Of a stretch of 33,732 nt of DNA, positions 3,938 through 7,419 are shown piece after piece. The notes beneath the pieces were generated by a model. The model worked only from the letters and a program-made list of their open reading frames with translations. It did not search any database and was not told where the DNA came from. Origin of the DNA: Candidatus Halobonum tyrrellensis G22 (GTDB lineage: Archaea > Halobacteriota > Halobacteria > Halobacteriales > Haloferacaceae); assembly GCF_000495475.1 (NCBI RefSeq), contig NZ_ASGZ01000016.1, positions 1-33,732 on the forward strand, read 5' to 3'. The first letter of the stretch is position 1; each line of letters starts with the position of its first letter. A program made the translations under genes and the position numbers.

Positions 3938-4696
3938 ATGAGTGGACCGACGGGCACGCGCGACGACGACCGGTCCGCGGCCCCCCTCCGAACGCGCGGG
4001 AACGAGCCGACGCTGCAGGCGGCGCTCGACAGACTCGCGGGCGGGTGCGGGCTGCTGGTGACGGGCGACGTTTCGACGGAGGCGTACCGGGTCGCCGCGG
4101 CGCGTTACTTCGGGGAGTCGTCGAACGACCGCCGGCGCGTGCTCGGGCTAACGCACGACTCGCTCCGGGCGGACGACTGGCTCCCGGACGGGGTCGACTC
4201 GGACGGCGACGACGCCGACGTGGTGCGGCTCGGCGACGCCGTCCGCGACCCCGCCGCGGTCGAACCGGACCCGGCCGACCCGCCCGTCGACGACGGCAGA
4301 CAGCCCGTGACCGACCCCGAGACGTTCTCCGACCGGTTCCTCGGCGCCATCCGCGCCGACGACGGGGAGCCGACCGACAGCATGTACCTCCGGGTCGGCC
4401 TGTACCGCGTCGACGGCCTCCGCGCGGCGCTCGGCGAGGACCGGGCGGGCGACCTGTTGTGCGACGCCGCGGCGGCGACGCGCGACCGGGGCGGGATGGC
4501 GCACTTCCACCTCCCCCGACCGGCGGCGGAGACGTCCGCGCCGCGGGCGGACCCCGTCGTCGATTCGGTCGCGACGCGGCTCGGCGAACACCTCGACGTC
4601 ATCGTCCAACTCCGGTTCGCCGAGCGCGCGGCCGTCCCGGAGGAGCGGTGGCACATCCTCGGATGGGGGACGACCGACTGGCACCCGCTGCGGTGA
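3938..4696 (+). CDS. RecA/KaiC-like haloarchaeal protein, probably DUF7504 family
   Basis: A 252-aa soluble acidic protein with no signal peptide or membrane span. The segment GGCGLLVTGDVSTEAYRVAA (from about residue 33) sits where a RecA/KaiC-like protein would have its first strand and P-loop, but the Walker A lysine is missing (GDVSTEAY). Later strands such as VLGLTHDSL, MYLRVGLYRVDG and HLDVIVQLRF fit an alpha/beta fold. This pattern matches what I recall of haloarchaeal DUF7504 proteins, degenerate RecA-superfamily proteins of unknown function; the assignment is from memory. The start follows from the TATA element 27 nt upstream. The stop lies 3 nt before the CHAT protease gene and the GGTGA around that stop can act as its ribosome binding site, so the two are translationally coupled. 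Confidence 0.6.
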   Translation: MSGPTGTRDDDRSAAPLRTRGNEPTLQAALDRLAGGCGLLVTGDVSTEAYRVAAARYFGESSNDRRRVLGLTHDSLRADDWLPDGVDSDGDDADVVRLGDAVRDPAAVEPDPADPPVDDGRQPVTDPETFSDRFLGAIRADDGEPTDSMYLRVGLYRVDGLRAALGEDRAGDLLCDAAAATRDRGGMAHFHLPRPAAETSAPRADPVVDSVATRLGEHLDVIVQLRFAERAAVPEERWHILGWGTTDWHPLR

Positions 4697-4699
4697 GCG

Positions 4700-6892
4700 A
4701 TGAGCGAACAACTCGAAGGACGAGTCGGTGACGCGCTGACGCTCACGGCCGCGCCGACGGGGCGCGGTCGCTACGACATCGCCGACCACATCGAGGACGT
4801 GCGGATGCCGCTGCGTATCGGCGGCGACGGCGGCGGGCCGAACCGGATCGACGCGACCGACCGGTTCCCCGCGCCCGTCGACGCGTGCTGGCGGTTCCAC
4901 GCCGAGTCGGTGGCGCCGCTGTGCACCGCCGACATGTACGTCCGGACCCCGGACAACGCGGTGGTCGACGCGGCGACGACCGACGGGTCGGCGCGGGTCC
5001 CGCCGGGACCGCACGTGATCGAACTCTCGACTGCGCCGATGAAGACGTACTTCGCCGTCGAGGGACCCGCGCTGGTCGGCTACGACGACCGCTACCCACA
5101 CGTCCGGTTCGACGGCGGCCCGGCGGAGGTCGTCGTCGGCGCGCGCTCGCGCCACGAGACGCCCGTGGGCACCATCACGACCACCGACGACCCCGCCGAC
5201 CTCGCCACCGCGATCTCGCTGTTCGGGTCGGCGCTCGTGACCACCTCCCCCGAGCGGTCGTTCCCCACCCTCCGCGGACACCCGCCGCTGCTGGAGGTCG
5301 GCGACCGGTTCGACGTGCCGCCGCTGGTGAGTCGGGTCGACACCGGGGTCGAACTCGGGTTGCCGTTCGAGTACGGCCCGTTGTTTTCGGCGGCACCGCT
5401 CGCGTACTACCTCGGGGCGGGCATCGTCGAGAGCGGGGCGCCGTACCTCGCCGCCGCCAACGTCCGGTACGACCTGCCGGCGTCTCCCGAGGAGTTGGCG
5501 GCCGAACTGGGTCGGCTCCTCAGACACTGTTTCACACTCGACTGCGCGACGCGGGCGTGTTCGGCCGGGCTGTACGACGTGAACCTCGACGTCCACGAGG
5601 CGCTGACCGACCGGCTGGACCCGCCGTGGGAGGCGTGGTACCGCGCGGCTCTCGACGAGCGGACGGCCCGCTACCTGGAGGTGCCGACGGCCGCGACGCT
5701 CGAGTACATCGACTGGCCGCAGACGACCGACGTCAAGCCCGTGGCGACGAACGCCTCGATCCTGCCGTTCCTCGCGGCCGACCTCTCGGCCGTTCGATCG
5801 CCGCCGCCGACGCCGACCGTCTCCGGTGGCGAGCGCTCGACCGAACTCGACGACTTCCTCCGCGGGTGTCGCCCGACGGCGACGCGGGGTGCGGACGTGC
5901 GACCGCGGTCGGCGACCGCCGCCGGCACGTTCACGCGCGGCCCGACCCAGAACGCGATCGAGGAGAGCGACGAGACGGTCTCGCCGCGCGCGGCCGACAG
6001 CGTCTCGCGGGCGTGGGTCGGGCCGGGGTTCCCCACCAGCGCGGCGAAGCCCACCGTCGAGGCGTACCGTCGTCGGTTCGACCGGTCGCCGTCGGCCGAC
6101 CTCACCATCGACGTCACCGTCGTCTGCAACGACGAGCGGATGCGCGAGGAGATGGACGACGGCTACGGGTTCCGCGACCACGTCGCGTTCGACGTACAGA
6201 ACGAACACGACCTGACCGTCGCCGAGCTCCGGGACCTGCTCCGCGCCGACCACGACTTCTTCCACTACATCGGCCACGTCGACGGGCGCGGCATGGAGTG
6301 TTCCGACGGCTTTCTCGACCTCCGCGAACTCGACGGGACGGGCGTGGACGCGTTCCTGCTCAACGCGTGTTCGTCGTACAAGCAGGGGATGGCGCTCGTC
6401 GAGGCGGGGGCGCTCGGCGGCGTGGTCTCGCTGATGGAGCTGCCGAACACGCTCGCGACCCGCGTGGGACGCGACCTGGCGCGGCTGTTCGACGCCGGGT
6501 TCCCGCTGGACGCCGCCCTCGACGTGGTCCGCCGCGGCCCGTTCGCCGGGAGCGCGTACACCATCGTCGGCGACCCGCGCGCGCAGTTGTGTCAAAACCC
6601 GACGGGTGCCGCGATGGTGGTTCGGTTCGTCGACATCGACGAGGAAACCGCGAGAGTGGCTCCACGGTACTATCCGACGCTCTCGTTCGACATCGGGTCG
6701 ATGACCAATCCACACTACGCGAACACGGGGTGTCAGTACGTCTCTTCGGGAGAGCCGGCGGAGCTAGAATTGGACATCGATACGCTCGATAGGCTTTTCG
6801 GAACCCGCATTCCGATACTCATCCGTGATCGACTCTACTGGGCGGACGAAGTGTCTGTAGACGAGTTAGTATCCCTTAGGGACCCGCAGTAG
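4700..6892 (+). CDS. CHAT domain (caspase-like) protease, haloarchaeal type
   Basis: A 730-aa protein whose C-terminal part carries the CHAT signature. CHAT domains are caspase-like cysteine peptidases found in separase-related, bacterial defence and cell-death proteins. Seen: DFFHYIGHVD with the candidate catalytic histidine H526 (HYIGH, equivalent to the usual HFAGHG), then FLLNACSSYKQG with the candidate nucleophile C557 (usual LSAC), then alternating helices and SAYTIVGDPR near 620, like the late CHAT IVGDP motif. Residues 1-470 match no domain I recognise; 400-460 is low complexity and probably a linker. There are no TPR repeats, signal peptide or clear membrane helix. The last ~100 codons use AT-richer, rarer codons (TTA, CTT, AGG) than the rest. 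The 3' end overlaps a convergent small gene by 17 nt. Substrate and trigger are unknown. Confidence 0.8.
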   Translation: MSEQLEGRVGDALTLTAAPTGRGRYDIADHIEDVRMPLRIGGDGGGPNRIDATDRFPAPVDACWRFHAESVAPLCTADMYVRTPDNAVVDAATTDGSARVPPGPHVIELSTAPMKTYFAVEGPALVGYDDRYPHVRFDGGPAEVVVGARSRHETPVGTITTTDDPADLATAISLFGSALVTTSPERSFPTLRGHPPLLEVGDRFDVPPLVSRVDTGVELGLPFEYGPLFSAAPLAYYLGAGIVESGAPYLAAANVRYDLPASPEELAAELGRLLRHCFTLDCATRACSAGLYDVNLDVHEALTDRLDPPWEAWYRAALDERTARYLEVPTAATLEYIDWPQTTDVKPVATNASILPFLAADLSAVRSPPPTPTVSGGERSTELDDFLRGCRPTATRGADVRPRSATAAGTFTRGPTQNAIEESDETVSPRAADSVSRAWVGPGFPTSAAKPTVEAYRRRFDRSPSADLTIDVTVVCNDERMREEMDDGYGFRDHVAFDVQNEHDLTVAELRDLLRADHDFFHYIGHVDGRGMECSDGFLDLRELDGTGVDAFLLNACSSYKQGMALVEAGALGGVVSLMELPNTLATRVGRDLARLFDAGFPLDAALDVVRRGPFAGSAYTIVGDPRAQLCQNPTGAAMVVRFVDIDEETARVAPRYYPTLSFDIGSMTNPHYANTGCQYVSSGEPAELELDIDTLDRLFGTRIPILIRDRLYWADEVSVDELVSLRDPQ

Positions 6893-7016
6893 TACTCGCA
6901 GCCGCCATCGCATTCCCCGCGTTCGACAGCAGTAGCATCGCCGTAAACAGCACGCCCATCATCTTCGGGTGGTTCGCGAGCCAGTTCGTCGTCGCATCGG
7001 TTGTCTCGGACGTCAC
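6876..7016 (-). CDS. small single-span peptide, probably DUF7503 family
   Basis: An unlisted 46-aa ORF starting at GTG (7016). It has a short polar N-terminus (TSETTDATTNWLAN), then HPKMMGVLFTAMLLLSNAGN as one hydrophobic helix (about 19-36), and ends AAASTTAGP. The pattern N-x-P-K/R-M-M/I-G-V-L-F-T...AG is one I associate with small haloarchaeal proteins called DUF7503, which I believe occur next to DUF7504 and CHAT genes. A TATA-like GGTTTACTG (plus strand 7040-7048) lies 28 nt upstream of the GTG, and GGTGG lies just before it. It is convergent with the CHAT gene and overlaps its last 17 nt. Alternatives are an orphan signal peptide or a holin-like peptide; function is unknown. Confidence 0.68.
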   Translation of the reverse strand: MTSETTDATTNWLANHPKMMGVLFTAMLLLSNAGNAMAAASTTAGP

Positions 7017-7419
7017 ACTACCACCCAGAGTTTGTTTCACAGTAAACCTATCTGAAAGGTTCTGATATGCTGAACGTAAAAAGAATTCTCATCGATTAGA
7101 GGCGTCCTAAGAGCGGGCACGGTCTAGTTAATTCGGTCCTGCCGCTCCCGACTGGCGGGGACGGTCGACGAGAGTCGCCGATCAGTGAAGTAACGATTTG
7201 CGGGTGCTCACACGACAGAAACGGTCAGTGGATGGGGCGAGTATATCCCCGACAGAAGAGCCAGAGCACCGGTGAGAAACCTCGTTCGACCGAACCCGTA
7301 CCGAGGCCGCTTCGAAGCTGAACGGTTCTCGTCGACGAGAGCACCGGCCGGAGGCGGCAGACGGACGGCCGGTAGGCGGCGGGCGCGGGGTTTATCACTC
7401 GGAGCGGCGAAGCGTGCGT
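7017..7419. other. AT-richer intergenic region between the small peptide and aMBF1
   Basis: This 403-nt gap contains the promoter of the minus-strand peptide (TATA-like 7040-7048, with a second AT-rich candidate CGTAAAAAGAA at 7075-7085) and the aMBF1 promoter at its right end. 7040-7135 is clearly AT-richer than the surroundings. A perfect 14-bp palindrome, TCTCGTCGACGAGA, lies at 7327-7340. An Arg-rich open stretch from 7272 is not convincing as a gene. I see no RNA gene or repeat family here. Confidence 0.5.
7388..7396 (+). promoter_or_regulatory. TATA element of the aMBF1 gene
   Basis: GGGTTTATC, with TTTATC centred 26-27 nt before the ATG at 7420, fits a leaderless transcript. It supports that ATG rather than the GTG at 7414. 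Confidence 0.6.

Follow-up and report, generated by a model that had tools for sequence, protein, structure and literature searches.

A 33,732-nucleotide stretch of Candidatus Halobonum tyrrellensis G22 (hereafter the window; NCBI RefSeq assembly GCF_000495475.1, contig NZ_ASGZ01000016.1, positions 1 to 33,732 of the forward strand) contains the gene for a predicted CHAT-type cysteine peptidase of 730 residues, which is met at its 3′ end by a convergent gene for a 46-residue single-span peptide of the Pfam family DUF7503 (Table 1). Across haloarchaea, the product encoded in this convergent position has a nearly invariant C-terminal Gly-Pro and occurs as three carriers, namely the DUF7503 membrane peptide, a membrane-free tandem array, and an unrelated hydrophilic open reading frame (ORF) ending in STYGGP, which have the Gly-Pro end in common. 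Since the carrier is exchanged while Gly-Pro stays, the Gly-Pro tail rather than the membrane segment is, judging from the sequences compared, most likely the acting part. With a probability that we place just above even, the tail would be a dedicated short-peptide partner of the CHAT protease, docking to set its activity. The Gly-Pro end, the two further carriers, and the optional nature of the DUF7504 gene upstream of CHAT go beyond the first-pass annotation of the window, which had proposed that protease, RecA/KaiC-like regulator, and membrane-active peptide form one module for a stress or anti-phage response.

The pairing of the two convergent genes is conserved. Of the 118 loci in a first set, 109 have DUF7503 and CHAT arranged tail-to-tail, with stop codons mostly −16, −3, or +1 to +6 nt apart. 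In 13 whole genomes, DUF7503 was never seen away from CHAT, as all 30 genes above the family cut-off are convergent with it, and this adjacency is far beyond chance. A wider, phylogenetically clustered sample comprises 182 distinct CHAT loci. In 152 of them, a convergent ORF whose product terminates in Gly-Pro-COOH is present close to the CHAT stop (scored within −80 to +400 nt), compared with 3.7% at random points. The same end is found in 133 of 140 DUF7503 peptides. The codons (GGT/C/A/G and CCG/C/T/A) and the stop (TAA, TAG, or TGA) vary freely, with G and P constant, and therefore the constraint acts on the protein. This argument is carried by the codon variation and the 133 of 140 peptides, while the pN of zero at the Gly-Pro codons is in part a consequence of the comparison, which was confined to peptides ending in Gly-Pro. 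The possibility that Gly-Pro reflects a DNA motif across the CHAT stop was also considered and was rejected given that codons, stop codons, and distances all vary, the stop-to-stop distance ranging from −37 to over +100 nt with Gly-Pro kept throughout.

The tail-to-tail order, with stops mostly between −16 and +6 nt, is also what would be expected of control at the RNA level, in which the overlapping 3′ ends act as an antisense pair, as in type I toxin-antitoxin systems, or the ribosome pauses at Gly-Pro-stop. The peptide gene does have its own, separate AT-rich upstream region (AT fraction of about 0.6–0.75 from −95 to −25 in 137 loci), and a C-terminal proline slows termination. However, Gly-Pro persists over the whole range of stop-to-stop distances, and each unit of the arrays described below is held at the amino-acid level, which neither antisense pairing nor a single pause needs. 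RNA-level control is thus considered improbable.

The exchange of carriers is clearest in nine Haloplanus-like genomes, in which the peptide lacks the membrane segment and carries 2–14 copies of the tail, for example as (YTADGNGGGISGP)n, although array counts in draft genomes may be off and L221 contains a run of N. Most arrays begin with a common MSE(S/R)DSGTVA-like start. Arrays of at least four units have pS values of 0.20–0.58 and pN values of 0–0.024, and the array of L151 has 13 units with 13 different DNA sequences and one amino-acid sequence. The synonymous divergence within arrays exceeds the divergence seen when the CHAT genes of sister species are compared (lower bound 0.28), so recent copying cannot explain the identity of the units. 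Mere slippage was likewise rejected because of this synonymous divergence with almost zero amino-acid change. In the arrays of L151 and L218, units within a species keep the same species-specific residues despite codon divergence above that of the sister-species CHAT genes. On the Haloplanus CHAT gene tree, membrane peptide and array have changed into one another at least three times; a single origin of the arrays, as one repeat clade on the tree, was rejected (p-AU 1.3e-6). Array and DUF7503 are mutually exclusive in 12 of 12 genomes, with no detectable DUF7503 in the repeat genomes and no array in the membrane-peptide genomes.

In a separate CHAT clade, the equivalent position is occupied by the third carrier, whose hydrophilic ORF has the end K/R-R/G-V/I-S-T/S-Y-G/S/R-GP. 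A search of 20 genomes for the tail-plus-stop pattern of this class found a match in all but one; in 18 of the 19 with a match, the tail lies at the CHAT 3′ end, and in the other it is displaced. The one clear separation is on contig C3 of genome G445, where about 77 kb of DNA come between the CHAT gene and an STYGGP-like tail. The first-pass annotation suggested that the peptide could be a target, pore, or anchor; a membrane-active, pore, or anchor role as its essential function is not supported, given that hydrophilic arrays or a hydrophilic ORF replace the membrane segment and the Gly-Pro end stays. The arrays would also be multi-site substrates if the peptide were a plain substrate or bait that CHAT cleaves within the tail, with binding having no regulatory role, and there is a precedent for a CHAT protease with a substrate of its own, namely Csx29 with Csx30 (PMC10028731). 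Yet no single candidate P1 residue is found in the tails of all carriers, and Gly-Pro, the conserved part, stands at the very end, with nothing beyond it to release. This possibility is rated as low as RNA-level control.

Within DUF7503 itself, the membrane part has a pN/pS of 0.30, and the remainder of the tail one of 0.64. The Pro and Arg/Lys of an HP(R/K) motif preceding the hydrophobic segment are invariant in 140 of 140 peptides, and the hydrophobic core is highly conserved (GxLF, LLLSQAG). The invariant motif is compatible with a membrane effector of the kind envisaged in the first-pass annotation: CHAT would cut DUF7503 after HP(R/K) on the inner face and the freed, membrane-active peptide would damage the membrane. 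The nearest solved folds of the peptidase domain include the gingipains, which are specific for Arg or Lys, and separase, which is specific for Arg. Against this stand the hydrophilic arrays and ORFs that replace the membrane segment at the equivalent gene position with the Gly-Pro end kept, the array units without Arg or Lys, and the fact that basic residues flanking a membrane segment are expected in any case, and such an effector is regarded as unlikely.

The hydrophobic segment is also signal-like. HP(R/K) is separated from the peptide end by a nearly fixed 31–32 residues, small residues occupy AxA-like positions, and the short tail is variable and differs between paralogues. DUF7503 could therefore be a Sec-dependent precursor cut at the AxA-like site to yield a secreted signal of 7–9 residues ending in Gly-Pro, which CHAT would process or sense. 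The multicopy arrays, which are under strict amino-acid constraint, would then be precursors comparable to yeast alpha-factor. However, a signal sequence is missing from both the arrays and the STYGGP class, and the hydrophobic core is conserved far beyond the needs of a cleaved signal sequence. A secreted signal is also unlikely, if marginally less so than the membrane effector.

In the preferred reading, that of a tail acting on the protease, the working part would be the C-terminal 7–12 residues or so, with a Gly-Pro terminus whose carboxylate is free, and the carriers would merely display it. The tail would dock on the CHAT protein and set its activity, whether through activation, inhibition, or cleavage. 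Clustered tails, in a membrane oligomer or an array, may bring protease molecules together or engage many of them simultaneously. DUF7504 may serve as a lineage-specific regulator, and the downstream role would be proteolysis in stress or housekeeping and not a classical anti-phage suicide.

Several observations weigh against this proposal. The main difficulty is one of topology: because the conserved Arg/Lys precedes the hydrophobic segment, DUF7503 should be oriented N-in/C-out with its tail outside the cell, while the CHAT protein shows no signal peptide; the absence of a membrane segment from the array and STYGGP carriers belongs to the same point. In addition, seven of the 140 DUF7503 peptides do not end in Gly-Pro, and the residues before Gly-Pro are weakly constrained within DUF7503, as the pN/pS of 0.64 indicates. 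Some CHAT clades with an intact catalytic His-Cys dyad also have no Gly-Pro peptide (L045, L258, L269, L287, L288). The dyad is intact wherever a Gly-Pro peptide is present, and CHAT proteins without the His or Cys (L255, L289–L291, L293 twice, and the first copy of L285) are all without one, though this link between dyad loss and peptide loss comes from few independent events. Two more gapped alignment rows (the second copy of L115 and the first piece of L231) are fragments.

Among the dyad-deficient proteins, those of L289, L290, L291, and L293 form a clade missing the catalytic His and/or Cys, with a tandem pair in L293, and are apparent pseudoproteases. L260 and L285 have another convergent, acidic ORF, which ends in RLGSR(D/E)NFWGN and overlaps the CHAT stop at a −3 offset; it may represent a fourth class of partner or simply be a neighboring gene. 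A motif common to tail and CHAT, as in amyloid signaling, was rejected, since the tail sequence occurs solely in the peptide at each of the four loci checked.

The 730-residue protein is, on the basis of its modeled fold and conserved residues, a clan CD/CHAT-type cysteine peptidase with predicted activity. As proposed in the first-pass annotation, His526 and Cys557 form its dyad, both being invariant in an alignment of the first 55 homologs; in the wider alignment of 182 rows, the His is present in 174 and the Cys in 173. The protein has no direct match in Pfam, NCBIfam, or PADLOC. When 36 family members were scanned singly, 12 matched Pfam CHAT (PF12770; best 1.3e-5), and this profile is too distant to pick up the window-type family even within the genome of the window. 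The AlphaFold2 model (pLDDT 86, pTM 0.86) gave Foldseek matches of its peptidase part in the PDB to gingipain R (RgpB; 2.2e-5), separase (8.1e-5), Csx29 TPR-CHAT (7zoq_A; 7.8e-4), and gingipain K, and a PDB sequence search detected no sequence relation to separase or gingipain. The N-terminal 470 residues, which had been said to resemble nothing known, indeed have no confident PDB match by sequence or fold. The best candidate, the alpha-galactosidase TtGalA (8.4e-4), was rejected as weak at a TM-score of about 0.2. Three further CHAT paralogs occur in the genome of the window, on contigs C12 (L044), C68 (L045), and C23 (L046). Two of them are each accompanied by a DUF7503-like peptide, the tails being different, and the paralog on C68 has none.

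The gene positions, the 3-nt spacing, and the overlap of the convergent peptide gene with the CHAT end are as first annotated, and both the degenerate RecA/KaiC-like neighbor and the single-span peptide proved to be members of recognized families. The junction between the DUF7504 and CHAT genes reads TGA, 3 nt, ATG. CHAT-linked DUF7504 members have lost the P-loop (Walker A), whereas free-standing paralogs in the same genome keep it as TGAPLTGK or AGPPMTGK (L048/L049), and one free-standing paralog matches Pfam KaiC (9.8e-4). This genome has six DUF7504 paralogs away from CHAT (L047–L052); the P-loop is intact in some, and resemblances to KaiC, DUF835, and DUF7090 occur among them. DUF7504 is codirectional with and upstream of CHAT in just 86 of 182 loci; it is thus an accessory, optional gene, and the core unit is CHAT with its convergent peptide. 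The proposed three-gene module therefore stands as a true genetic linkage across haloarchaea with a CHAT-peptide core, and DUF7504 is not an obligatory part of it. Where DUF7504 is absent, no replacement upstream partner is conserved overall, and many of the largest ORFs there resemble antisense frames.

Table 1. Layout of the CHAT locus in the window.
Feature	Position	Strand	Remarks
DUF7504 gene	3938..4696	+	252 aa; degenerate KaiC-like, without P-loop; accessory to CHAT operon; Pfam 1.4e-28
CHAT/clan CD cysteine peptidase gene (predicted activity)	4700..6892	+	730 aa
N-terminal region of CHAT protein, residues 1-372	4700..5815	+	beta-sandwich (~13-160), then alpha/beta part; model pLDDT 92
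CHAT peptidase domain, residues ~434-625	5999..6574	+	model and Foldseek matches
Catalytic His526 codon (HYIGH)	6275..6277	+	invariant 55/55
Catalytic Cys557 codon (LLNACSSY)	6368..6370	+	invariant 55/55
Overlap of convergent coding ends of CHAT and DUF7503 genes	6876..6892	n/a	17 nt
DUF7503 peptide gene	6876..7016	-	46 aa; GTG start; convergent with CHAT; Pfam 1.2e-18; purifying selection across family
C-terminal Gly-Pro codons of DUF7503 peptide	6879..6884	-	Gly-Pro in 152/182 loci; codons and stop vary
DUF7503 hydrophobic segment MMGVLFTAMLLLSNAGNAMAA, after HPK motif	6900..6962	-	family core conservation
Promoter-like stretch upstream of DUF7503 gene	7039..7060	-	similar in close relatives L053-L055

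CHAT relatives occur in 125 of 148 genomes of the family to which the window belongs, in other families of its order, and in four more distant genomes of its phylum. In genome contigs, 454 stretches encode CHAT relatives, and the 80 kept are all haloarchaeal going by their titles; the viral contigs searched contained none. The distant relatives of L254–L257 (family f16 of the same phylum) have a diverged C-terminal region and no convincing Gly-Pro peptide. The locus of the window is syntenic in three genera, in the order hisC, kinase, CDP-alcohol transferase, module, MBF1, and tpiA (hisC-like and the other gene names were read from the sequences by the analyst), and it belongs to the core chromosome rather than to a defense island. 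PADLOC returned no match for the three window proteins. Because of the core-chromosome position and the lack of viral copies and PADLOC matches, the pore and anti-phage readings are unsupported, and the anti-phage system suggested in the first-pass annotation was rejected. In the literature searched, no paper names DUF7503 or DUF7504 or combines the term "CHAT domain" with haloarchaea or Haloferax, and Pfam gives no function for either family.

Haloferax volcanii displays strong, stress-linked caspase-like activity, and the same work notes the lack of archaeal gene homologs (PMC3615174). The CHAT-peptide pair is carried by several Haloferax species (L142, L152, L154, L172, L176, L180, L183), and H. 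volcanii, whose CHAT copy is presumed, matches both DUF7503 and DUF7504 in a control search. The pair may thus be a candidate for the Haloferax activity. The proteasome could also give rise to such activity. The broader proposal, of an archaeal protease switch of a kind not described before, in which a caspase-like enzyme is gated by a short linear peptide with a free C-terminal Gly-Pro, displayed on exchangeable carriers (a membrane oligomer, a tandem array, or a soluble ORF), and which may also underlie the activity in Haloferax, is a tentative one that we hold at clearly less than even probability. The Haloferax pair makes the origin of the caspase-like activity directly testable. Microbial CHAT and caspase-like proteases are best known from defense, whereas the family described here is core-chromosomal in the genera examined and has a dedicated peptide gene. 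The swap between membrane peptide and array amounts to an unusual natural experiment, which indicates, before any bench work, where the function of the peptide resides.

Among known systems, type I toxin-antitoxin pairs, defined by a small hydrophobic peptide and an overlapping antisense RNA, are a possible comparison at most: the window has a hydrophobic peptide and a convergent overlap of the genes, and other loci have hydrophilic carriers. Multicopy peptide precursors and signal peptides of the Phr/arbitrium type offer a more general comparison, as they share a short variable C-terminal peptide, a signal-like hydrophobic part, and tandem identical units. They differ in that the haloarchaeal gene is convergent to a CHAT protease, its arrays have no export signal, and its C-terminal Gly-Pro is conserved. 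Separase with securin and the gingipains provide the closest solved folds of the peptidase domain, though the partner differs. To our knowledge, neither Craspase nor the gasdermin systems include a convergent Gly-Pro peptide. In bacterial gasdermin systems, a caspase-like protease adjoins a membrane-acting protein (PMC9079055), and the likeness lies in a caspase-like protease beside the gene for a membrane-associated partner. At the haloarchaeal loci, however, no gasdermin domain or gasdermin-fold pore protein was found beside CHAT, the partners being DUF7503 or hydrophilic peptides; sister species do without the membrane part, and there are no defense surroundings. Closest in logic is the type III-E system Craspase (CASP), in which the CHAT protease Csx29 has a dedicated substrate, Csx30, that is recognized via its C-terminal part (PMC10028731). 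Common to the two systems is a His-Cys peptidase of the CHAT type that is genetically paired with a dedicated partner, and the fold match is that to 7zoq_A (7.8e-4). No Cas7-11/gRAMP, TPR, or Csx30 was found at the haloarchaeal CHAT loci, with core metabolic genes as neighbors in the window and close relatives, and the window CHAT family is found in haloarchaea and a few distant relatives. While Csx30 is a protein of 565 residues, the haloarchaeal partner is a tiny convergent peptide.

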